Assembly: GCA_003221515.1 (NCBI GenBank)
Contig: QHSI01000059.1
Location: forward strand, 17,733-49,773
Direction: 5' to 3'
Length of the DNA stretch: 32,041 nucleotides
DNA from: Candidatus Rokuibacteriota bacterium
GTDB taxonomy: Bacteria; Methylomirabilota; Methylomirabilia; Rokubacteriales; CSP1-6
The notes under the pieces: model-generated
Told to the model about the DNA's origin: nothing
Databases searched by the model: none
The model's input: only the letters and a program-made list of their open reading frames with translations
Part shown: positions 4,797-30,685 of the stretch, in pieces
Layout: each line of letters starts with the position of its first letter
How positions within the stretch are numbered: the first letter of the stretch is position 1
Program-made: the position numbers and the translations under genes

Positions 4797-4910
4797 CCGT
4801 GGCCGCGCCGGAGGAGGCCCTCGGTCTCGCCGGCTGACGCCCCCCGCGAACGCGTTTCGGCTTCGGGGTGCCGCCGGTAAAACTTGGCCCATGCCCGGGA
4901 CTTTGTTTCT

Positions 4911-6917
4911 ATGGGGGCATATGCGAGAGAGCCTTTGGCAGCCGCCAGCCGCAACGTAAGCCCCCCGCCTCCCGTTCCTGCCGTGACGCCCGCGCCGCCG
5001 CCCAAGCCGACGATGACCGCCGTCGAGATGGGGGCGCGCCAGCGGGAGATCTCGGTCTCCGAGTTCTTCACCAAGAACCGCCATCTGCTGGGGTTCGACA
5101 ATCCACGAAAGGCGCTGCTGACGTGCGTGAAAGAGGCCGTCGATAACGCGCTCGACGCCTGCGAGGAAGCCGGGATCCTCCCGGACGTGGTCGTCAAGCT
5201 CGAGCCCGTCGCCAACGGCGGACCGCCGCCGCCGGCGAGCCAGGCGACCCGCTTCCGGATCACGGTCGCCGACAACGGCCCCGGCATCGTCCGCCAGCAG
5301 ATTCCGCCGATCTTCGCGAAGCTCCTGTACGGCTCGAAGTTCCATCGGCTGCGCATGAGCCGCGGCCAGCAGGGGATCGGCATCTCGGCAGCCGGCATGT
5401 ATGGACAGCTCACGACCGGCAAGCCCGTGCGGATCATCTCGCGCACGAACGCGAGGGCGCCCGCGCACTACTTCGAAGTCCAGATCGATACCAAGAAGAA
5501 CGAGCCGCTGATTCTCGAGAAGAAGCAGATCGACTGGGAGTCCCCGCGGGGGACCCAGGTGACGATGGAAGTCGAGGGCCGCTATCAGAAAGGGCGGGCC
5601 TCGGTCGACGAATACGTCGAGCAGACGATCATCGCCAACCCGCACGTCAAGATGACCTACGTCACTCCGGAAGGGGAGACGAAGGAGTTTCGCCGCACGT
5701 ACGAGCAGCTCCCCGCGTCGCCGCGCGAGATCAAGCCGCATCCCTACGGGATCGAGCTCGGGATGCTGTTGAAGATGCTCCAGGATACCAAGAGCCATTG
5801 GCTCTCGGGGTTCCTGTCCGGTGATTTCAGCCGGGTATCGCCGCGCCTCGCCGAGGACATCTGCAAGGCCGCGAGCCTCTCGCCGCGCGCCCGTCCGCGA
5901 GACGTTCACGGGCAGGCCGCCGAGAACCTCTACAAGGGCATCCAGGCCACCAAGATCATGGCGCCGCCCACCAATTGCCTCTCGCCGATCGGGGAGAAGG
6001 CGATCCTCGCGGGCCTGTACCAGCAGATCAAAGGGGAGTTCTACACCGCGGTGACCCGGCCGCCCGCGGTGTATCGCGGCAATCCCTTCGTGATCGAGGC
6101 GGGCTTGGCCTACGGCAAGGGACCGGAGCCGGCGCCGGAGAGCCAGGCGAAGAAGGAAATCTCGCTCGCGGAAGGGGAGGCCGCGGAGAACGATCACGAG
6201 CTCGCCCGCGTCATCCGCTACGCGAACCGGGTGCCGCTCCTCTATCAGCAGTCGGCCTGTGTCAGCTACAAGTCCGTGCTCGACACGACGTGGCGCAACT
6301 ACGGCGTGGCGCAGTCCCGCGGCGCCGTGCCGTCGGGCCCGATGGTGATCTTCGTCCACATGGCGTCGGTCTGGGTCCCGTTCACCAGCGAGTCCAAGGA
6401 AGCGATCGCCGAGTACGACGAGATTCGCAAGGAGATCACGCTGGCGCTGCGCGAGTGCGGCCGGCGGCTCGGCGCGTTCCTCCGGCGGCGCGAGCGCGCC
6501 CACAGCGAGTTCCGCCGGCGCAACATCTTCGAGCTCTACATCGAGGAAGTCGTCGCGTCGTGCAACCGTCTCAAGGGCGGCAAGCTGGCCACCGCGAAGC
6601 TGAAGGACCAGCTCCAGAAGATGGCCATGAAGCGGACCGGCGGCGAAAAGACCGACGAGCTCCTGGGGCAGAATGGAAGCGGCCCCGAAGGCCTGCCGCA
6701 CTCGATCATCGTGACGCCCGAGGGCGTCGAGGGCGAGGTGCCCGCGCCGGTCGCCGACGCGGCGACGGCGGGGGCGCCGAACGGCGTCGCCAAGACGAAC
6801 GGCGGCCCTCCGCCGAGCGGAGCCGGCGACGGGGCGAAGGGCGCCAGGCGCTCGGGACGTAAGGGAACGACCAAGGCGCGCGCGAAGGCCAGGCCCACCG
6901 CACGCAAGAGAAGGTAG
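4911..6917 (+). CDS. top6B: DNA topoisomerase VI subunit B (GHKL ATPase)
   Basis: Subunit B of the type IIB topoisomerase, which couples ATP-driven dimerisation to DNA transport through the break made by subunit A. Numbered from ATG 4911, the Bergerat-fold motifs are clear: N-box E75-A-V-D78-N79, G1 box DNGPGI (121-126), and G2 box GQQGIG (152-157). The helix-two-turn-helix and transducer regions follow. At 668 residues it is longer than most archaeal homologues. The last 70 or so residues are a low-complexity Gly/Ala/Pro stretch turning into a Lys/Arg-rich tail, probably disordered and DNA-binding. The start is uncertain: no Shine-Dalgarno is seen, TTG 4884 and ATG 5013 are alternatives, and the segment before 5013 is Pro/Ala-rich and may be untranslated. 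Subunit A starts 9 bases downstream. Confidence 0.95.
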   Translation: MGAYAREPLAAASRNVSPPPPVPAVTPAPPPKPTMTAVEMGARQREISVSEFFTKNRHLLGFDNPRKALLTCVKEAVDNALDACEEAGILPDVVVKLEPVANGGPPPPASQATRFRITVADNGPGIVRQQIPPIFAKLLYGSKFHRLRMSRGQQGIGISAAGMYGQLTTGKPVRIISRTNARAPAHYFEVQIDTKKNEPLILEKKQIDWESPRGTQVTMEVEGRYQKGRASVDEYVEQTIIANPHVKMTYVTPEGETKEFRRTYEQLPASPREIKPHPYGIELGMLLKMLQDTKSHWLSGFLSGDFSRVSPRLAEDICKAASLSPRARPRDVHGQAAENLYKGIQATKIMAPPTNCLSPIGEKAILAGLYQQIKGEFYTAVTRPPAVYRGNPFVIEAGLAYGKGPEPAPESQAKKEISLAEGEAAENDHELARVIRYANRVPLLYQQSACVSYKSVLDTTWRNYGVAQSRGAVPSGPMVIFVHMASVWVPFTSESKEAIAEYDEIRKEITLALRECGRRLGAFLRRRERAHSEFRRRNIFELYIEEVVASCNRLKGGKLATAKLKDQLQKMAMKRTGGEKTDELLGQNGSGPEGLPHSIIVTPEGVEGEVPAPVADAATAGAPNGVAKTNGGPPPSGAGDGAKGARRSGRKGTTKARAKARPTARKRR

Positions 6918-6926
6918 GACGCCCCC

Positions 6927-8030
6927 ATGGCCCAGAAGCAACGAACGGCGACCGCGGTCGAGAAGAAGCTGATCGGCGTGGCCGACGTGGTGATCCACGC
7001 CGCCGAGCGGCGCAAGGATCCGACGCTCACGATCCCGGTCCGCTCGCTGTCGAACGTGACCTTCAACGACCGCAAGGGCCTGATCGAGATGGGCAAGCGC
7101 AAGCAGGCGCGGTCGTTCTTCAACGTCGGCATGGCCAAGAAGTTCATGCAGACCGTCCTGGTGGCCGACGCGCTCTGCGAGCTGCAGCGGGCGAACCTCA
7201 CGACCTCGCTCCGTGAGATCTACTACCGCACCAAGCACACGATCAAGAACTCGCACGAGAACACGATCGACACGCAAGACGAGTCCGATCCGCTCATCGA
7301 AGACCTCGAGGTGACGCTGACGGCGCTCCGCGAGGAGCTGCACGTGCGCGCCGAGAACGCCGGCTCGATCGTGGGCCCGCTGGTGCTGGTCGACGACGGC
7401 GACCGGGTGGACTGCGCGCGGCTCGGGAAGGGCGGCTACTCCGTGCCGTCCATCGTGGAGCCGGAATATCTACAGATCAGGCAGTGCACCGCCGATTTCC
7501 TCCTGCTGGTCGAGAAGGGCACCCAGTGGAACCGGCTCTCGGAGGACAAGTTCTGGCGCCGATACAACTGCGTGCTCCTGACCGGCAACGGCCAGCCGCC
7601 CCGCGGCGTCCGGCGTCTGGCGCGGCGACTGCACGAGGAGAAGAAGCTCCCGGTCTACGTCCTCGTGGACAACGATCCGTGGGGCTACTACATCTACTCG
7701 GTCATCAAACAGGGCTCCATCAACCTCGCCTTCGAGAGCCAGCGCATGGCCATCCCGAAGGCCAAGTTCGTCGGGCTCTCGAGCGCCGACCCCGAGGCGT
7801 ACGAGCTCCCGCGCAACGTGGGCATCAAGCTCAACGACAAGGACGTCGCGCGCGCCAAGGAGCTGCTCGGCTACACCTGGTTCCAGAAGAAGAGCTGGCA
7901 GGCCGAGATCAAGCGGATGCTGGCGAGCGGGCTCAAGTACGAACTCGACGCGCTCGCCAACAAAGACTTCCAGTACCTCACCAAGAAGTACCTGCCCCGG
8001 AAGCTCAAAGAGCAGGACTGGCTGGACTGA
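6927..8030 (+). CDS. top6A: DNA topoisomerase VI subunit A (Spo11-like)
   Basis: This catalytic subunit makes a double-strand break through a 5'-phosphotyrosyl link. At 367 residues it is normal for the family. The winged-helix domain carries REIYYR (Y99-Y100). By comparison with Spo11/Top6A, whose active Tyr is the second of the pair, Y100 is the likely nucleophile. The Toprim domain shows E196 in LLVEKG and D248-N-D250 in LVDNDPWG, which ligate Mg2+. The ATG lies 9 bases after the top6B stop, so the two form an operon and probably an A2B2 enzyme. No frameshift or missing catalytic residue is visible. Topoisomerase VI is typical of archaea and plants and is patchy in bacteria. Confidence 0.96.
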   Translation: MAQKQRTATAVEKKLIGVADVVIHAAERRKDPTLTIPVRSLSNVTFNDRKGLIEMGKRKQARSFFNVGMAKKFMQTVLVADALCELQRANLTTSLREIYYRTKHTIKNSHENTIDTQDESDPLIEDLEVTLTALREELHVRAENAGSIVGPLVLVDDGDRVDCARLGKGGYSVPSIVEPEYLQIRQCTADFLLLVEKGTQWNRLSEDKFWRRYNCVLLTGNGQPPRGVRRLARRLHEEKKLPVYVLVDNDPWGYYIYSVIKQGSINLAFESQRMAIPKAKFVGLSSADPEAYELPRNVGIKLNDKDVARAKELLGYTWFQKKSWQAEIKRMLASGLKYELDALANKDFQYLTKKYLPRKLKEQDWLD

Positions 8031-9651: not shown

Positions 9652-10614
9652 ATGGTGACACTCGGTGCCCGATGCCTGCTCGTGCTGAGCCTGCTGGCCT
9701 GGAGCGGCGCGGCGTGGGCGCAGACCAAGATGACCATCGCCACCGGCGTGGATCCTGTGTTCTCCGCGTACTACGTGGCGCAGCAGGAGGGGTTGTTCAA
9801 GAAGCATGGGCTGGACGTGCGCATCAACACGGGGCCGTCCGGCTCGGCCATGGTGTCGTTCCTCATCAACGGCCAGATCGAATCGGCCTTCGGGTCGGAG
9901 ATCGCCGGCGTCGCCAACCACAACCTGGACCCGAACGTGGTGGTCGTCGCGCAGGCCACGCGTCTGGTGCGATGGATCGCCGTGGTGGGCCGCAATATCG
10001 ACAACCTCGACGGGCTCAAGGGCAAGAAGGTGGGCGTGGCGCGCGGCTCGGGCGGCGAGGTGTTCTGGCTAGCCATGCTAGACAAGCTCAAGCTGAACGC
10101 CGCCGACTACACGGTGGTCAACGTGGAGGCTCCGGAGATGGTGGCGGCGCTCGAGCGCGGCAACATCGACGCCTACGCCGTGTGGGAGCCCTGGGTGACG
10201 CGCGGGCTCGCCGCCGTCAGGAACACGAAGGTGCTCAAGGACCAGGAGGGCATTCTCGAGCAGGGCGTGTACATCTACATGAACCTCGGGTGGATCAAAA
10301 AGAACCCCGCGCAGGCCGACGGGTTCATGCGCGCGCTCGTCGAGGCGACGGAGATCATCAACAAAGACCGTAAGCGCGCCGCCAAGGACGTGTCCGATTT
10401 CCTCAAGAGCCTGGATCCGCCGATGGTAGAGCAGCTCATGACCAAGCTCACGTTCGACATGGAGCTGGGCGCGACGACGATCAACATGTTCCGGCTCGCC
10501 GAGGCGCAGCTCAAGGGTCAGGGCAAGCTCACCAAGCCCATCGACTACGGCGCGTTCGTGCATCCGGACCTGTTGCGCAAGATCGAGCCCAAGAAGGTCG
10601 ACTACAAGCCCTGA
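9652..10614 (+). CDS. NitT/TauT-type ABC transporter, periplasmic substrate-binding protein
   Basis: An NMT1/SsuA-like binding protein of 320 residues. I chose ATG 9652 over GTG 9643 because AGGAGG (9637-9642) sits nine bases before it, and because it gives a clean signal peptide: a hydrophobic core followed by AWA-Q. Family features include the N-terminal DPVFSAYYVAQQEGLFKKHGL stretch and the GLKGKKVGVARGSG ligand-cleft region. The C-terminal part is close to the usual length. It captures the substrate for the ATPase/permease pair upstream. The ligand is not predictable by eye. The gene runs tail-to-tail into NDH-2 on the other strand, the two overlapping by 13 bases. Confidence 0.92.
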   Translation: MVTLGARCLLVLSLLAWSGAAWAQTKMTIATGVDPVFSAYYVAQQEGLFKKHGLDVRINTGPSGSAMVSFLINGQIESAFGSEIAGVANHNLDPNVVVVAQATRLVRWIAVVGRNIDNLDGLKGKKVGVARGSGGEVFWLAMLDKLKLNAADYTVVNVEAPEMVAALERGNIDAYAVWEPWVTRGLAAVRNTKVLKDQEGILEQGVYIYMNLGWIKKNPAQADGFMRALVEATEIINKDRKRAAKDVSDFLKSLDPPMVEQLMTKLTFDMELGATTINMFRLAEAQLKGQGKLTKPIDYGAFVHPDLLRKIEPKKVDYKP

Positions 10615-11894
10615 CCGCTGGCGTCGCCCGAGCCGCGGCCTCTCCACGGCCCCGTGATCAGCCGCGCGCCGCGGTGCCAGGTGACGTACGCCCACGCCCA
10701 TTCGAAGAGCACGAGCAGCCGGTTGCGGAAGCCGATCAGGAACATGATGTGCACGAGCAGCCACGCGAGCCACGCGACCAGCCCCGAGAGCTTGAAGCGG
10801 CCGACGACCGCGACGGCGGCCGCCCGGCCGATCGTGGCCATGCTGCCCTGGTCGCGATAGCGGAACGGACGCGTCGGCTGCCCGCCGACCCGTCGCAGCA
10901 CGTTGTCCGCCACCGCGCGGCCCTGCTGGATCGCGACCGGCGCCACGCCGGGCAGCGGCGCGCCGGTCTGATGCAGGCAGGCGCACACGTCGCCGATCGC
11001 GAACGCCTCCGGGTGGCCCGGAATCGAGAGATCCGGCTCGACGAGGACGCGTCCGGAGCGATCGAGCGGCGTCCCCAGCGTCCGCGCCAGCGGCGCCGCC
11101 GCCACGCCGGCGGCCCAGAGCACCGTGCGTGCGCGGATCTGCTCGCCCCCGAGCCACACGGCGTCGGTGGTCACCCGGGTCACGGTGACGCCCGTGCGCA
11201 CCTCGACACCGATGCGCTGCAGAGCGTCTCGCGCCGCGCGCGAGAGCGATTCGGGAAAGGCGGTGAGGATGCGCGGGGCGCCCTCCACGAGGACGATGCG
11301 CGCTCGCGAGGGATCGATCAGCCGGAAGTCGCGCGTGATGGTCTGGCGCGAGATCTCGCCGAGCGCCCCCGCCAGCTCGACACCCGTTGGACCGCCGCCG
11401 ACGACCACGAAGGTGAGGAGCGCCTCCTGCTCGGCGCCATCGCGCTCGCGCTCGGCCGCTTCGTAGGCCAGCAGCACGCGGCGCCGGATCTCGAGCGCGT
11501 CTTCGAGGGTCTTGAGCCCCGGCGCCAGCAGCTCCCAGTCGTCGTGGCCGAAGTACGAGTGGCTGGCGCCCGCCGCGAGGATCAGCACGTCGTAGGCGAT
11601 CTCGCCGCGATCGAGGACCACCCGGCGGCCGGCCAGATCCACGCGCTCCACGTTCGCCAGGAAGACGGTCACGTTCGAGGCGCCGCGCAGGATGGAGCGT
11701 AGCGGCACCGCGATGTCCGAAGGATTGAGCACGGCGGTGGCCACCTGGTACAGCAGCGGCTGGAACAGATGATGGTTGCGCCGGTCGAGCAACGTGACCC
11801 GCACGGGACGGCCGGCCAGCGCGCGAGCGGCGTACAGCCCGCCGAAGCCGCCGCCCACGATCACGAGGTGCGGACGGAGATCGGGCCGCGCCAT
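10602..11894 (-). CDS. ndh: Type II NADH dehydrogenase (NDH-2) family FAD/NAD(P) oxidoreductase
   Basis: A two-Rossmann flavoprotein that oxidises NADH and reduces quinone without proton pumping. From ATG at 11894 (430 residues), the FAD site is VIVGGGFGGLYAA (GGGFGG 14-19). The NADH site is VVVGGGPTGVELAG, and the FAD-closing motif is AIGDVCA. The C-terminus has a strongly hydrophobic stretch (LVAWLAWLLVHIMFLIGF) and aromatic residues typical of the membrane-attachment region. Upstream in-frame codons to 11966 run through the promoter/operator region of the divergent tetR gene, so they are rejected as coding. It may share control with the TetR operators about 40-90 bases upstream of its start. 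A sulfide:quinone-type activity is less likely because the diagnostic Cys pair was not seen. Confidence 0.9.
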   Translation of the reverse strand: MARPDLRPHLVIVGGGFGGLYAARALAGRPVRVTLLDRRNHHLFQPLLYQVATAVLNPSDIAVPLRSILRGASNVTVFLANVERVDLAGRRVVLDRGEIAYDVLILAAGASHSYFGHDDWELLAPGLKTLEDALEIRRRVLLAYEAAERERDGAEQEALLTFVVVGGGPTGVELAGALGEISRQTITRDFRLIDPSRARIVLVEGAPRILTAFPESLSRAARDALQRIGVEVRTGVTVTRVTTDAVWLGGEQIRARTVLWAAGVAAAPLARTLGTPLDRSGRVLVEPDLSIPGHPEAFAIGDVCACLHQTGAPLPGVAPVAIQQGRAVADNVLRRVGGQPTRPFRYRDQGSMATIGRAAAVAVVGRFKLSGLVAWLAWLLVHIMFLIGFRNRLLVLFEWAWAYVTWHRGARLITGPWRGRGSGDASGQGL

Positions 11895-11923
11895 ACCCGT
11901 ATGGTACCGCCGGGGCGGGGGGC

Positions 11924-11951
11924 TTGACAGACAAGTAACCGTATGGATACT
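11924..11951 (+). promoter_or_regulatory. Sigma-70-type promoter of the tetR operon
   Basis: A perfect -35 TTGACA (11924-11929), a 16-base spacer and GATACT (11946-11951, four of six to consensus) lie 24 bases before the tetR ATG. The -10 and spacer are covered by the first palindromic operator, the arrangement expected for negative autoregulation. Confidence 0.75.
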
Positions 11952-11983
11952 CTCAGCGCCCAGCAAGTATCCATATGGTTACT
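11934..11983. promoter_or_regulatory. Two 18-bp TetR operator palindromes
   Basis: AGTAACCGTATGGATACT (11934-11951) and AGTATCCATATGGTTACT (11966-11983) are inverted copies of each other with one mismatch. Each is itself a near-palindrome. Their centres are 32 bases apart, about three helical turns. The first overlaps the -10 and the second overlaps the tetR start codon. They most likely bind the adjacent TetR protein and could also influence the divergent ndh gene. Confidence 0.75.
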
Positions 11984-12613
11984 TCCAGCCGCGACCCCCT
12001 CCGTACCCGCGTGCGCATCCTCCGCGCCGCTCGCCGCGAGTTCGCGCGCAAGGGGTTCGCCGGCGCCCGGGTGGACGCGATCGCCCGGGCGGCGTCGGTC
12101 AACAAGCGGATGCTCTATCACTACTTCGGCAACAAGGAGGCGCTGTTCCGCGCCATCCTGCGCGAGGGCATCGCCACGAACCTCGACCTGGTGGCCGCCG
12201 CGCCGGCCGACGCGGTCGACCTCTTGCCCTTCCTCTTCGAGCGCGCGTCGAAGCGCGGCGAGGGGATCCGGCTGCTCCAGTGGGAGGCGCTCGGCAGCGG
12301 TGACCGCAAGCCGATCGCCGAGGAGGAGCGTCGCAAGGCATGGGTCGAGGGCACCGAGCGTCTCCGGGGCGCCCAGCGCGCCGGGCTGTTCCACGGGGAT
12401 CTCGATCCCGAGTACCTGGTGCTGTCGCTGATGGCGCTCACCGTCTTTCCGCTGGCGTTCCCGCAGCTGGTTCGCATGGTCACCGGCGCGCGGGTGAGTG
12501 ACACCGAGTTTCAACGGCGCCAGACCCGCTTCCTGCGCCGGCTGGGTGCCTGCCTGCGCCCGCAAGCTCCCGATCGCGAGCAATCCCTGGGTCCAAAGGA
12601 GAACCACCCATGA
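11975..12613 (+). CDS. TetR/AcrR family transcriptional regulator
   Basis: A 212-residue repressor. The N-terminal HTH domain (about residues 10-57) shows the family pattern ILRAARREFARKGFAGA...IARAASVNKRMLYHYFGNKEALF. The C-terminal ligand-binding domain is divergent, as usual, so the ligand is unknown. The gene is preceded by its own promoter overlapped by a palindrome, with a second palindrome across the start codon, arguing for autoregulation. Its TGA overlaps the ATG of the membrane protein downstream (ATGA), so the two are co-expressed. The divergent neighbour is NDH-2. If the second operator is real, the annotated start lies inside it, so a leaderless or short-leader message is implied. 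Confidence 0.93.
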   Translation: MVTSSRDPLRTRVRILRAARREFARKGFAGARVDAIARAASVNKRMLYHYFGNKEALFRAILREGIATNLDLVAAAPADAVDLLPFLFERASKRGEGIRLLQWEALGSGDRKPIAEEERRKAWVEGTERLRGAQRAGLFHGDLDPEYLVLSLMALTVFPLAFPQLVRMVTGARVSDTEFQRRQTRFLRRLGACLRPQAPDREQSLGPKENHP

Positions 12614-13794
12614 GCTCCGTGCAGACTGCGTTGCTCGGGCATACCACGGCGGCGCCGGCGGCCGACGTCGAGTCCCTCGCTCTGTACCGCATCGCGCTCT
12701 GGGCCCTGCTGGCCGGCAATCTCATCGCCGGCTGGGGCGTGCAGTGGGACATCCAGTGGCACGTGCGGGTCGGGCGGGACTCGTTCTGGATTCCGCCGCA
12801 CGTGATGACCTACGGCGGCGTCGCCATCGTCGTGCTCGTCAGCTTCGGCGTGCTGGCGCGTGACACGCTCCGCCATCTGGTCGGCGGCCGTGCGCCCCGC
12901 GGCACCACACGGGTCGTTGGGGTCATGGGCACGCCGGGCTTCTACCTGGCGGCGTGCGGCATCGCGCTCACGGTGCTGGCCGCCCCGATCGACGACCTCT
13001 GGCATCGCTTGTTCGGCATCGATGTGACGCTCTGGAGCCCACCGCATCTGCTCGGCCTGCTCGGCGTCACGATCAACACCCTGGCCTGTCTGCTCATCGT
13101 GCGCGAGGCGTACCCGGCGCGCGGCTGGGCCCGTTATCTGGGCCTCGTCCTCGCCGCGAGCACGCTCTTCGGCAGCCTCGGCGTCGCGCTGCGGCCGACG
13201 GGCCGACTGGCGTTCCTGTATGGCGGGATCTCGTTCTATTCGTACCCGATCCTGGCGGCGCTGCTCCTGCCGATGGCCCTCGTGGCGGTGGCGCGGCTGA
13301 CGGGCCACCGCTCGGCGCCCCTCGTGGTGATAGCCATCGCGCTCGCCGTCGGCATGCTCGGTGCCTGGATCGCGCGGGTTGGATTCGACATCATCCAGCC
13401 CGTATCTTTCATCCAGGAGGAGATCGCGAAGGATCCGACTTCGCCGATCGCGGTCGCTCACGCGATCGCCCAGAAGAACCGCACGACGCCCGGCGGCGCG
13501 CCGAGCGGGAGCCTCTCGCGGCTCCTCGCTTTCGTCCCAATACTGATGATGGTCGTGCTCGACCCGCGTCGCCGGCCGGTGGTCGCCACGCTTGGCTACG
13601 CCATCGGCGTGTTCGCGGTCTGGGGATTCGCAATGGGCCTGACTCCCGCGTTCCGCCCGATGGTCCCCGGCGTGGGGCCGACCGCCGTCGCCCTGCTATT
13701 GACGCTCGCGACGGCGCTGGTCGGCGGTTTCGCGGCGGCCTGGCTCGCCGACCGCCTCGAGCGGGCCGTGAGCTCACCCGTCGCGGCGAGCTGA
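12610..13794 (+). CDS. Polytopic membrane protein with a duplicated D-x2-WH...W-x-PPH motif, function unknown
   Basis: A 394-residue protein with about nine to ten hydrophobic helices. I do not recognise a named family. Its striking feature is an internal repeat. The first copy is D47-x2-W50-H51-x3-G55-x-D57-x2-W60-x-P62-P63-H64. The second is D128-x2-W131-H132-x3-G136-x-D138-x3-W142-x-P144-P145-H146. Each copy follows a hydrophobic helix, so the four histidines and four acidic residues would cluster at one membrane face, a plausible metal or haem site (inference). It is translationally coupled to tetR (ATGA overlap) with its own AAAGGAG (12595-12601). It is therefore probably the main target of that repressor. 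Transporter, respiratory accessory protein or metal handling are all open. Confidence 0.85.
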   Translation: MSSVQTALLGHTTAAPAADVESLALYRIALWALLAGNLIAGWGVQWDIQWHVRVGRDSFWIPPHVMTYGGVAIVVLVSFGVLARDTLRHLVGGRAPRGTTRVVGVMGTPGFYLAACGIALTVLAAPIDDLWHRLFGIDVTLWSPPHLLGLLGVTINTLACLLIVREAYPARGWARYLGLVLAASTLFGSLGVALRPTGRLAFLYGGISFYSYPILAALLLPMALVAVARLTGHRSAPLVVIAIALAVGMLGAWIARVGFDIIQPVSFIQEEIAKDPTSPIAVAHAIAQKNRTTPGGAPSGSLSRLLAFVPILMMVVLDPRRRPVVATLGYAIGVFAVWGFAMGLTPAFRPMVPGVGPTAVALLLTLATALVGGFAAAWLADRLERAVSSPVAAS

Positions 13795-13900: not shown

Positions 13901-13916
13901 CGGTATCGATCTTGCC
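13901..13916 (+). promoter_or_regulatory. Sigma-54-like -24/-12 element before SLT1
   Basis: CGGTATCGATCTTGCC has the invariant GG-N10-GC spacing and the TTGC core of sigma-54 promoters, but only a partial -24 match. The predicted start would be near 13927, three bases before the ATG, implying a nearly leaderless message. Its strength comes from conservation: the same 32-base block, 24 of 32 identical, precedes the HTH-SLT2 operon. Confidence 0.45.
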
Positions 13917-13929
13917 CTGCAGTACTGGC

Positions 13930-14526
13930 ATGGAACGCTTGAGTCCCCGGTCCCTGGTCCTGATCGCCGTAACCGCGGCCATGACGGTGGCCGCCCCGGC
14001 CGCCGCCGATTCAGCGCGGCGAACCGTCGCGGAAGGCTACCGATACCAGCGTGAGATCGCCGAGGCTTCGGCGCGATATTCGGTGCCGGCGCGCTTGATT
14101 CGCGCGGTCATCATCGCCGAATCCGGATTCGATCATCGCGCGGTGTCCCGAACGGGGGCCTGCGGGCTCATGCAGCTGATGCCGGAGACCGCGGCGATTC
14201 TCGGGGTGCGCGATCCGTTCGACGCACGCCAGAACATCCACGCGGGTACGCGTCACCTGCGCGCCATGATGGTGCGGTTCCGCTCCGACCTGCCGCTCGC
14301 GATCGCGGCCTACAACGCTGGCGAAAAGGCGGTGGCGTCGTACGGCGGGATTCCGCCGTATCCGGAGACTCGCGAATACGTCGTTCGGGTGCTGCGCCTC
14401 TATGGCGCGTCGATCGAGTGGGAGCGGTTCGAGGGCACCGGCATCCACCGGGTCTTCCAGCCCGACGGAACGGTTGTCTACACCAACATCCCGGTCCGCC
14501 CCGTCAGTTCCGCCTCGCTCGATTAG
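13930..14526 (+). CDS. Lytic transglycosylase (SLT domain), exported (SLT1)
   Basis: A 198-residue enzyme that cleaves peptidoglycan between MurNAc and GlcNAc, giving 1,6-anhydro ends. ATG 13930 gives a signal peptide (about 1-27, ending APAAA); the upstream TTG 13912 adds only six residues. The SLT domain (about 40-155) shows IIAESGFD with catalytic E64. It also has GLMQLMPETA, the substrate loop INI-type segment, and AAYNAGEKAV, all diagnostic of the MltE/Slt70 catalytic fold. A short C-terminal piece (FQPDGTVVYTN) resembles DUF4124-like tails. It is a paralogue of the enzyme at 20.6 kb and shares its upstream control sequences. The paralogue-type membrane protein P1 lies downstream, so a joint envelope role is possible. 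Confidence 0.93.
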   Translation: MERLSPRSLVLIAVTAAMTVAAPAAADSARRTVAEGYRYQREIAEASARYSVPARLIRAVIIAESGFDHRAVSRTGACGLMQLMPETAAILGVRDPFDARQNIHAGTRHLRAMMVRFRSDLPLAIAAYNAGEKAVASYGGIPPYPETREYVVRVLRLYGASIEWERFEGTGIHRVFQPDGTVVYTNIPVRPVSSASLD

Positions 14527-14945: not shown

Positions 14946-15995
14946 ATGAAAGATCGAGATCCAGTCCGTCGAGATGATGTCGGATCGCGTGCCGCGTCTG
15001 GCGGGGCGTCCAGGCGCCTGTGCATCGTCTCCCGCGATCGGCTGTTGTCCGGCGCGTCCGTCGCAGCTCTCACGACAGCCCTGAGCCCCGGCGACGAGCT
15101 GGAGATCATCATGGACCGGCGCGGCGTCGGGCCCCCGACACACCAGCCGCCCATCGAGCGCCGCCACCACCCGGACGTCGACCACGCGCTCGAGCGAGAC
15201 GGGTTCGCCATCGTGCCGACGCAAATTCCTCGACCGACGATACCGGGTGGTCTGAAATCTCCTCGAGTCCCATCGACGTCACCGATCGAGCACCTCGCCC
15301 TCAATGAGGCGGATGCGCGCGAGCTCGAGCGCATCCTCGGGTTCAAGCGCCACCGGACAGCTCGACTCCGCCGAGGGCTGATTTTGGCCGGGCTGCTGAG
15401 CGCGATCCTGGTTCTGCTGGTCCTTTCGCCGCCGGTGCAGACCCTCCTGAGTCGGGCTCGCCCAGCCGCGCCACGAATCGCCGAAGCTCCTCGGCCGACG
15501 CCAACTCCACCGGTCGCGGCGACTCCTTCGCCGAACCCCGCGGTTCTCGCGTCGCCGCGCGCCGTCCGCCCGCAGAGCTCGGAAGAACGCCCACGCGAAG
15601 CGGGCAGCTCGACGCGAGGGCTCTCGGGACCGAGCGCGGCCGCGCCGCCGAAGGCGGTGCCCGGCCCGAGCACTGTCGATCCGCCGGCGAAGGGAACGCG
15701 GGTCGCCACGCTGCCCCAGGCGGACGTGACGCGCAACCCTGTGCCGATGTCGGAGGGCGGGGGCGAGGCGTACGCCGTGCGGCTCTCGGACCCGGCCGGG
15801 CGACCCGTCTCAGGCGCCCAGGTCTCGCTTCTCTTCCGCATGGCGGACGGCACCCTGCTCGACGTCCCGTTCGCATCTGGTGCCGAGCCGGGGACCTACC
15901 ACGCGACGGTGCCGCCCCTCGATCCAACTCCGGTCGATCTTCGCATCCGGGTCGTCACGAGCGACAAGCGCGTCGAGATCCCGCTGACGCCATAG
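14946..15995 (+). CDS. P1: DRR/ERR-domain protein with one TM helix and an Ig-like C-terminal domain; family not recognised
   Basis: This 349-residue protein has four parts. (1) Residues about 22-92 are a small N-terminal domain: RRLCIVS, then ELEIIMDRR (51-59), ERRHHPDVD (71-79) and DGFAIVP. (2) A charged segment follows, ADARELERILGFKRHR (122-137). (3) A single TM helix spans about 144-163. (4) After a Pro/Ala/Ser-rich linker (about 164-272) comes a C-terminal beta domain (274-349), with pattern RPVSGAQVSLLFRMADG...EPGTYHATVPP...DLRIRV, resembling FixH/YtkA-like Ig folds. Positive charges before the helix predict the N-domain inside and the C-domain outside. It is a full-length paralogue of P2 at 25.8 kb, and its N-domain recurs in P3 at 30.2 kb. 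No ribosome site is clear, and TATGAT at about 14868 is the only promoter-like hexamer. Function unknown; a membrane signal or scaffold role is a guess. Confidence 0.85.
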   Translation: MKDRDPVRRDDVGSRAASGGASRRLCIVSRDRLLSGASVAALTTALSPGDELEIIMDRRGVGPPTHQPPIERRHHPDVDHALERDGFAIVPTQIPRPTIPGGLKSPRVPSTSPIEHLALNEADARELERILGFKRHRTARLRRGLILAGLLSAILVLLVLSPPVQTLLSRARPAAPRIAEAPRPTPTPPVAATPSPNPAVLASPRAVRPQSSEERPREAGSSTRGLSGPSAAAPPKAVPGPSTVDPPAKGTRVATLPQADVTRNPVPMSEGGGEAYAVRLSDPAGRPVSGAQVSLLFRMADGTLLDVPFASGAEPGTYHATVPPLDPTPVDLRIRVVTSDKRVEIPLTP

Positions 15996-25820: not shown

Positions 25821-26927
25821 ATGCCCAGGCGGCTGTGCATCCTTTCGGGCAACCTCATGCGGTGTGACGCGTTCATCCCGGCGCTGACGTCGTTGAGTAG
25901 GGATGACGAGCTCGAAATCGTCCGGGACCGACGGCGAGGCGCCGCTTCGAGCGAAGCGACGAATCGACCGGTCCAGGAGCGGCGCTGCCGGCCCTACCTC
26001 GATCTCGCACTGAGGGTCGATGGCTTTGCGATCGTGCCCTGGTCCCCTGAACCCGCGGCGCCGCTCCCGGCCCCAGCACCGATGCCCGCACCTTCGTCGG
26101 CGCCCCCGCCGACGCCTGACCGCTTTCGGCCCGCGTCGTCGCTCGATCGCTTCGCCATTGACGACGAGAACGAGGCCGATCGCGAGCGGCTCGAGCGCAT
26201 CCTTCGCTTCAAGCCTCGGCGCAGGGTCGGTCCGTTGGTCATGATCGTCTTCGCGACCGCGATCGTGGTCGCCGCCTTCGCGACGATGCCGGCGCTGCGG
26301 GACCGGGTGAGTCTCATCGTGCCGGACGCGCCGCGGTCTGGCGACCAGCCGACGCCTGCGGGTCAGCCAGAGGAGAGCGCGGTGGCCACGCAAACACTGC
26401 CGCCCGTCACCGAGGCCCCCGCGACGAACGCCCCGGAGCCCGCAGCCTCTCCGTCTGCCGTCGCGGCGAACACCGAACCGGACCGCGGCCGTGAGCCCCT
26501 CACGCCGGCGCCTGCGCTGCCGCCCGAGCCGAGCGCTCGAGTGGCGCGACCGCGTTCGGCACGCGTGACGCCCAGAGTCGTGCCCCCGCCGATCGCCAGC
26601 GCACGCGTCACGTCGCCGGGCCCGGTCAAACGTGAGTGGTCCCCGCCGCTGCCCGGCGTGCCCCGCGTGGAGCTGTCCCGCGCCCACGCGAGTCAGGGCG
26701 AGACGTACACCGTGCGTGTCTCGGATATCAGCGGGCGGCCGCTCGCCGGCGCCGACATCCTGCTCCTCGCGCGCATGGCCGACGGAACGGCGGCCAGCAT
26801 CCCGCTGAGCGCCGCCGAGCCCGGGACCTATCACGGAACGATGCCGCCCGGACGATCGTTGTTGGTCGATCTCCGGGTTCGCGTGACCACGAGCGACAAG
26901 CGAGTCGAGATCCCGTTCGCGCCGTGA
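25821..26927 (+). CDS. P2: DRR/ERR-domain protein with one TM helix and an Ig-like C-terminal domain; paralogue of P1
   Basis: A 368-residue protein with AGGAGG five bases before its ATG. It has the same order as P1. The N-domain is RRLCILS (3-9), DELEIVRDRR (29-38), ERR at 53-55 and DGFAIVP. It is followed by the linker element ADRERLERILRFKPRRR (119-135), one TM helix (about 138-156), and a long Pro/Ala-rich linker. The C-terminal Ig-like domain (about 293-368) carries YTVRVSD, GRPLAGADI, RMADGT, EPGTYHGTMPP and TTSDKRVEIP. Conservation with P1 is highest at the two ends and the pre-TM element; the linkers differ, as expected for true paralogues under selection. It is preceded by a good sigma-54-like promoter and followed by a histidine kinase gene about 100 bases on. 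Function unknown. Confidence 0.87.
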   Translation: MPRRLCILSGNLMRCDAFIPALTSLSRDDELEIVRDRRRGAASSEATNRPVQERRCRPYLDLALRVDGFAIVPWSPEPAAPLPAPAPMPAPSSAPPPTPDRFRPASSLDRFAIDDENEADRERLERILRFKPRRRVGPLVMIVFATAIVVAAFATMPALRDRVSLIVPDAPRSGDQPTPAGQPEESAVATQTLPPVTEAPATNAPEPAASPSAVAANTEPDRGREPLTPAPALPPEPSARVARPRSARVTPRVVPPPIASARVTSPGPVKREWSPPLPGVPRVELSRAHASQGETYTVRVSDISGRPLAGADILLLARMADGTAASIPLSAAEPGTYHGTMPPGRSLLVDLRVRVTTSDKRVEIPFAP

Positions 26928-30184: not shown

Positions 30185-30685
30185 TCAGCTGGCGTGGGTG
30201 AGTGGCTGCTGCGCCGAGCGGTGCTCCGCCCAGTAGCGGCACGTCTGGGCGTGTGCGACGACGACCTCCATCAAATCCGTTCCGCAGCGCGGGCACGGGA
30301 GCGCGCCGGGCTCGACGTGCGAGATCCAGCCGAGCCGATACGTGTCCTGGCACTTCTGGCAGGGCACCACGTGGTTGTTGCAACACAGGAACAGGATCGC
30401 CTTCACGTCGAGGTCGCGGAAATCGACGTGCCCCGACGCGCGCGGCACCGCGATCCAGCGATCGACCTTCAGCTCGGCGTCCGCGCCGATCCGGCGCCGG
30501 CGCTCGTTCTGACGTCGTTCCGGACCATGACCGTTCGCGTTCGATTGAACGCGGCGGTCGGCGCTCCGGCGATCGACGATTATCTTCACGCTCGCATCGT
30601 CCGCGAACGTCTGGCTCAGCGAACGACACGCATCCGGTTCGGTTTTCGGAACGACGATGAGGAGCGAGTGCCCGTTAGCCTTCAT
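30185..30685 (-). CDS. P3: DRR/ERR N-domain fused to a Cys-rich zinc ribbon
   Basis: A 166-residue cytoplasmic protein with GGAGG seven bases before the ATG. The N-terminal half has the layout of P1 and P2: strand LLIVVP (8-13), helix, strand VKIIVDRR (33-40), an ERR-rich patch (ERR at 56-58 and 61-63), then DRWIAVP. The C-terminal half is different: C101, C102, C109-x2-C112, C131-x2-C134 and C149, with two nearby histidines (H105, H145). This is a probable zinc ribbon with an extra site. It has no TM helix. It is divergently placed from the CheY/CheW operon, and a weak sigma-54-like motif on the minus strand at 30919-30934 points toward it. Function unknown; nucleic-acid or protein binding is plausible for the ribbon. 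Confidence 0.8.
   Translation of the reverse strand: MKANGHSLLIVVPKTEPDACRSLSQTFADDASVKIIVDRRSADRRVQSNANGHGPERRQNERRRRIGADAELKVDRWIAVPRASGHVDFRDLDVKAILFLCCNNHVVPCQKCQDTYRLGWISHVEPGALPCPRCGTDLMEVVVAHAQTCRYWAEHRSAQQPLTHAS

Follow-up and report, generated by a model that had tools for sequence, protein, structure and literature searches.

The window analysed here, a stretch of 32,041 nucleotides from a soil bacterium, contains an open reading frame for a membrane protein that is preceded on the same strand by a TetR-family regulator gene and, further upstream and divergently oriented, by a gene for an NDH-2-like NADH dehydrogenase (Table 1). The stop codon of the TetR gene overlaps the start codon of the membrane protein gene, and the same overlap is present in all seven same-genus loci (L001, L004-L009), in line with the coupling of the two genes proposed in a sequence-only reading of this DNA; they probably constitute a two-gene operon. 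The overlap also occurs in L162, a locus of a divergent subfamily of relatives, and TetR genes adjoin two mycobacterial members divergently; the other rokubacterial loci fetched mostly have no TetR gene within 3 kb, some of their flanks being short. The NDH-2-like gene possibly shares a promoter region with the operon, and among the loci of the relatives linkage to NDH-2 was found in L023 only. Clustering of the loci by neighbourhood with a simple gene caller revealed little. Downstream there is a lytic transglycosylase gene (13912-14526, plus strand; SLT, E 3e-26), which adjoins the membrane protein gene only in the closest relative (L004/L023).

Elsewhere in the window, this bacterial genome encodes topoisomerase VI, a mainly archaeal enzyme: subunit B (Topo-VIb_trans, E 1.1e-55) and subunit A (TOP6A/Spo11 toprim, E 6.4e-59) are adjacent at 4884-8027 on the plus strand. 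In addition, three ORFs (14946-15992, 25821-26924 and 30188-30685), none of them with a Pfam match, share an N-terminal stretch ending in (I/V)(I/V/M).DRR with ORFs in L045 (13050-13754) and L047 (12346-13050), and could represent a recurrent, unnamed rokubacterial family.

Table 1. Coordinates in the window of the membrane protein gene, its parts and its upstream neighbours.
Feature	Position	Strand	Details and evidence
NDH-2-like NADH dehydrogenase, divergent	10602..11966	-	Pfam Pyr_redox_2 6.9e-46, NDH2_C 6.2e-8
TetR-family regulator	11975..12613	+	Pfam TetR_N 2.8e-17, TetR_C_21 4.2e-10
PmoC-like membrane protein	12610..13794	+	394 aa, ATG at 12610, stop end 13794 included
Four-helix core, residues 16-170, corresponding to PmoC residues about 124-270 (7s4h_C numbering)	12655..13119	+	AlphaFold2, Foldseek, VIA
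Site 1, D47-x3-H51-x12-H64, putative CuC counterpart	12748..12801	+	Motif spacing, alignment
Site 2, D128-x3-H132-x13-H146, putative CuD counterpart with Asp for Asn	12991..13047	+	Spacing, in-register alignment
C-terminal membrane half, residues 171-394	13120..13791	+	Further predicted helices

The membrane protein matched no NCBIfam model and nothing in Pfam better than E 0.12, and as a single query it found no match among PDB sequences. Its first half carries two copies of a motif, D47-I-Q-W50-H51-V-R-V-G55-R56-D57-S-F-W60-I-P-P-H64 and D128-D-L-W131-H132-R-L-F-G136-I-D138-V-T-L-W142-S-P-P-H146. As had been noticed from the sequence, these lie 81 residues apart and each follows a hydrophobic helix: the spacing is the same up to the second Asp, copy 2 having one more residue before the last Trp, and each copy closes a predicted helix (residues 17-54 and 109-135). 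This half of the protein is a true internal duplication. Profiles of repeat 1 and repeat 2 built from 52 relatives aligned with an hhalign score of 61.3 (E 2e-11) over 56 columns, preceding helix included, against a best score of 27.6 in 100 block shuffles; the two crops overlapped by 20 columns, and the aligned stretch lies outside that overlap. Of 77 family ORFs with 150 residues or more, 65 have the two-site pattern D-x3-H-x12-H...[DN]-x3-H-x13-H, as do 61 of 62 PmoC sequences, whereas none of 2273 other ORFs and none of 20000 shuffles of the window protein has it. The 12 family ORFs without it correspond to the divergent subfamily, to members with other spacings and to cut or frame-broken sequences.

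Two actinobacterial members first pointed to a known family: the AmoC model matched them weakly at motif 1, with E 0.044 and 0.094 and scores well short of the cut-off. Against the AmoC model PF04896, with a curated cut-off of 26.7 bits, two full-length relatives scored 12.5 and 13.6 bits, five of 23 cores of relatives matched at E <=1 (best E 0.0032), and the window protein itself gave no match at E <=1 and stayed short of the cut-off. Three alignments were used in profile searches: A1, close-family, with 20 rows; A5, diverse cores, with 23 rows; and A6, with 27 rows, which adds the divergent subfamily. An hmmsearch with A5 over 177,635 distinct PDB sequences returned 14 matches at E <=10, all of them PmoC/AmoC (best E 2.8e-5), with the alignment in register as far as the (D/N)-x3-H of the second site. 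With A6 the 14 matches were again all PmoC/AmoC (best E 4.5e-5), and the alignment ran through the last His. A diverse profile is needed for this detection, since neither the single sequence nor A1 matched anything in the PDB. In the reverse direction, a profile of 62 PmoC sequences was run against 4866 ORFs with a minimum length of 80 residues, including 78 from the family, and gave 41 matches at E <=10, every one a family member (best E 1.2e-5), the window gene itself reaching only E 5.1. When 52 family cores were compared directly with 62 PmoC sequences by hhalign, the score was 32.3, with the alignment limited to motif 1; block shuffling (150 controls) gave no more than 25.6, full shuffling (100 controls) no more than 20.9 and reversal 14.2. 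Repeat 2 of the family alone did not rise above shuffles when compared with the second PmoC site. Judged from these profile searches, homology to PmoC/AmoC extends beyond the motif, and the first 170 residues of the window protein are a remote homologue of the PmoC/AmoC copper-binding helical core. The protein had been assigned to an unknown family, which holds insofar as no Pfam or NCBIfam family covers it and has to be amended in view of this remote relationship.

PmoC sequences fetched with PF04896 carry DGTWHQTVIRDTDFTPSH and NEWGHTFWIMEELFVAPLH, and according to a passage of PMC12576850 the PmoC ligands are D156, H160 and H173 for CuC and N227, H231 and H245 for CuD, with R165 and F177 nearby. 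At matching offsets the window protein has D47, H51, R56, H64 and Y68, followed by D128, H132 and H146, R56 corresponding by spacing to R165 and Y68 to F177; this equivalence is based on spacing, site 1 and site 2 being 71 residues apart in the fetched PmoC, as are positions 156 and 227. The CuC ligand pattern D-x3-H-x12-H is present in the window protein (D47, H51, H64), and both His and the spacing of the CuD pattern N-x3-H-x13-H are kept, with Asp (D128) in place of the Asn found in all 62 PmoC sequences examined. The window protein and PmoC/AmoC (PF04896) are alike in their four-helix core and membrane location, in the spacing of D-x3-H-x12-H and (D/N)-x3-H-x13-H, in the Arg nine positions after the first Asp and in the aromatic residue four positions after the third ligand. 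They are unlike in that the window protein has no Pfam match, replaces the CuD Asn by Asp, separates D47 from D128 by 81 residues instead of 71 and has an extra C-terminal membrane half, for which (residues 171-394) no relative was found and which has no invariant column between subfamilies. They also differ in the internal sequence duplication, which is clear in the family and undetectable in PmoC, where disjoint crops of repeat 1 and repeat 2 showed no similarity.

The columns D, H, G, R, H and D, H, G, D, W, H were invariant in 16 of 16 relatives and in the 23 rows of A5, the ligand columns were invariant in A1 (20/20) as well as in A5 (23/23), and once the divergent subfamily was included the invariant columns were reduced to D, H, H, D, H, G, H, that is, the six ligands and one Gly (27/27); the rows for these 16-, 20-, 23- and 27-member counts were chosen without the motif pattern, and the 23- and 27-member crops were placed around the motif. 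Conservation of the ligands in 52 of 52 sequences was set aside because those rows had been picked with the motif pattern, which makes the count circular; the pattern excluded five of 62 sequences, three apparently cut by contig ends and two apparently out of frame upstream. All 23 rows of A5 have the Arg that corresponds to R165 (R56), and the aromatic residue in the place of F177 (Y68) is almost as constant. The six ligands are also present in the Nonomuraea and M. vanbaalenii members, whose site-1 spacings are x11 and x14. Variation of the His residues among homologues, which the sequence-only reading had named as evidence that would count against it, was not seen, all six ligand positions being kept in 27 of 27 diverse relatives.

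An AlphaFold2 model built from 20 sequences had a pLDDT of 87 overall and 89 in the core (residues 16-170). In this model motif 1 joins helices 17-54 and 62-92 and motif 2 joins helices 109-135 and 144-167, with the last His of each motif at the start of the next predicted helix. The motif loops are predicted to lie outside because the intervening loop, residues 93-108, has three Arg and no acidic residue. In the predicted topology both share one end of the bundle, with the Arg-rich loop at the other, and are not on the opposite membrane faces that had been put forward as a possible objection. When the core model was searched with Foldseek, PmoC/AmoC chains accounted for seven of the top nine matches (ranks 1, 3, 4, 5, 7, 8 and 9; 9pxf_G, 7s4m_C, 9leg_C, 7yzy_C, 7s4h_C, 9cl6_C and 7s4l_C), with E 0.055-0.39, each above 0.05, probability 0.97-1.00 and TMq 0.49-0.62. 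VIA superposed the core on 7s4h_C with Z 9.1 and an rmsd of 3.3 over 142 residues (model 1-155 on 124-270); at its ends the superposition is shifted by one residue relative to the motif register (offsets 123 and 115 vs 124 and 114). The VIA Z values were 8.5-9.4 for PmoC/AmoC chains, up to 11.8 for soluble four-helix bundles and about 8.8 for oxidase subunit III; the fold is consistent with PmoC and not discriminating, since soluble bundles outscore it and oxidase subunit III equals it. With the full-length model, PmoC was not among the best 50 matches listed by Foldseek and VIA.

The taxonomic range surveyed comprised Methylomirabilota and plasmid records. A family match was found in 30 of 59 related genomes, and A5 matched 46 of 95 Methylomirabilota genomes at E <=1e-5, most of them from the window's own family and two from the genus that holds true PmoC. 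At least three architectures exist among the relatives, the window gene being the short form. A long form, some 520 residues in length and extended by a C-terminal domain, occurs in pairs in L045, L046, L047, L048, L164 and L165; the pairs in L045 (6735-11472), L046 (7004-10387), L164 and L165 have a conserved C-terminal part (GPAWC) without a Pfam match. The third form has a weak FixH- or YtkA-like region, below Pfam cut-offs, which is N-terminal in L055 and C-terminal in the actinobacterial L060 and is absent from the window protein. The divergent subfamily (L158-L162; L158, 5915-6988), also present in the genus holding true PmoC, has D-x3-H-x16-H as site 2 and lacks the Arg. In L161 the gene of this subfamily follows a TetR gene and enoyl-CoA hydratase-like and dehydrogenase-like ORFs, the latter two named by reading their sequences. 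A tblastn search of plasmids matched nine actinobacterial records, in which all annotated matches are called hypothetical; the M. rufum match covers the C-terminal end only, and that of Streptomyces FR1 equals F2 in identity and coverage. Viral contigs contained no relative of the family.

The window genome, a draft, has no PmoA, PmoB or PmoC match; in having no PmoA or PmoB partner the window protein also differs from PmoC/AmoC. The AmoC model matched nine of 95 Methylomirabilota genomes and none of the 28 listed family-bearing ones, in which PmoA (PF02461) and PmoB (PF04744) were equally absent (0/28); as these genomes are drafts, absence from any one of them is weaker than absence from all. 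True XmoCAB clusters are reported in rokubacterial MAGs in a passage of PMC8780371. PF02461 and PF04744 matched one of seven plasmids, that of M. chubuense NBB4, and genome G074, which had been added to this search because a PmoC match was found there. Both contain true operons, holding PmoC/A/B matches together with family members; on the NBB4 plasmid the operon lies about 165 kb from the family gene, and the sequences are far apart. No description of PmoC relatives outside monooxygenase operons was found among the open-access papers listed by literature searches.

Copper genes surround several of the relatives. The rokubacterial paralogue L055 comes directly after CsoR, the copper chaperone PpoB2 and a CopA-type ATPase. 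In six of the seven annotated plasmid loci opened, the member lies amid copper/heavy-metal ATPases, CsoR, multicopper oxidases, cupredoxins, CopC or DUF305. In Leifsonia the neighbouring gene encodes a CsoR-type regulator, and in M. vanbaalenii the family gene is the next one downstream of CopC. The Rubrobacter plasmid locus has no copper neighbours, and the Nonomuraea record carries no annotation. HMA or CsoR genes are within 10 kb of four of seven plasmid members (P 0.0155 against position in the same records, with markers chosen after the islands had been seen). No copper genes are near the window gene, and the CsoR and HMA matches of its genome are on another contig. Relatives of PmoD, another protein linked to pMMO, occur beside copper genes according to passages of PMC6688271 and PMC6189053.

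We favour, with a probability of about 0.72, the reading that the window protein is a stand-alone PmoC-type membrane protein with two CuC/CuD-like Asp/His/His sites, probably for copper. In each of two helical hairpins, D-x3-H would terminate one helix and a His would open the following one, with both sets of ligands at one end of the bundle; together the hairpins would form two sites corresponding to CuC and CuD. These sites very probably bind a metal and, in all likelihood, face the periplasm; that the metal is copper seems probable. Another metal (zinc, iron or manganese) or a structural role of real sites is rather unlikely: relatives with solved structures are copper proteins, and the copper genes beside L055 and the Leifsonia and M. 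vanbaalenii members speak against it, even though Asp/His/His is a generic metal ligand set and the PmoC motif is called a predicted zinc/copper site in a passage of PMC6688271. The two-fold metal or haem site of the sequence-only reading agrees with the predicted model as to a two-fold metal site on one membrane face and not as to haem, which is not supported because the sequence relatives are copper-site proteins of the PmoC/AmoC type and not haem proteins. A two-fold haem site could draw on the four conserved His at helix ends and on weak VIA matches of the full model to haem A synthase and CcmF (Z 5.4 and 6.7), but the tool itself rates such values as background among helical proteins, profile searches match no haem protein and each D-x3-H pair is arranged as in CuC and CuD. 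We consider it barely credible, and the haem-site reading was rejected for having no sequence support in the PDB profile searches. It is also very unlikely that an unrelated four-helix bundle independently gained PmoC-like D-x3-H hairpins. Such bundles are common, VIA ranks several of them above PmoC, and repeat 2 alone is without significant similarity to the second PmoC site; nevertheless, in reciprocal profile searches the two families match nothing but each other, along some 100 residues that include helices, and both ligand spacings (x12, x13), the Arg at +9 and the helix order agree.

Regarding function, the most likely job of the family, at somewhat less than even odds, would be copper handling on the periplasmic side (acceptance, buffering or relay), which we place first because of the copper neighbours in Actinobacteria and in L055. 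Oxygen activation comes second because the Arg and the aromatic residue by the sites are kept in most members and because a TetR, not a copper regulator, is coupled to the gene in the window. From gene order, the TetR protein would probably repress its own operon and release it when a small ligand appears. If the protein were a single-subunit copper oxygenase or oxidase, its twin sites, needing neither PmoA nor PmoB, would activate O2 on a hydrophobic substrate, and that substrate would be what TetR senses. This alternative, which we consider less likely than not, would fit the conservation of R56 and Y68 beyond the ligands, the recurrence of the TetR overlap in L162 and the TetR genes adjoining the mycobacterial members, as well as the divergent NDH-2 gene of the window as a possible quinol source. 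However, the family has no conserved partner for electron transfer and is seldom linked to NDH-2, the Arg is missing from the divergent subfamily L158-L162, and the actinobacterial copper-island context suits handling equally. A more far-reaching proposal, which we find doubtful, is that the family retains a more symmetric state that preceded PmoC. CuC and CuD of the methane and ammonia monooxygenases would then have arisen by duplication of a single D-x3-H...H hairpin, a trace of which can still be read in the sequence of this family; with an Asp in each half, the protein would carry two equal Asp/His/His coppers, perhaps both at once, and would activate oxygen unaided as a one-subunit, TetR-controlled copper oxygenase.

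The reading of the window protein as a stand-alone PmoC-type copper protein is of interest because the PmoC sites are now argued, in a passage of PMC12576850, to be the active site of methane oxidation, and a one-gene relative with both sites would be a simpler protein for testing the roles of CuC and CuD. The family would show that the site pair is a duplicated hairpin, and it offers a clue to a conserved, so far uncharacterised protein of actinobacterial copper islands. A stand-alone relative would also suggest an origin for the copper monooxygenases, and these results suggest that the enzymes of methane and ammonia oxidation belong to a broader family of copper proteins.
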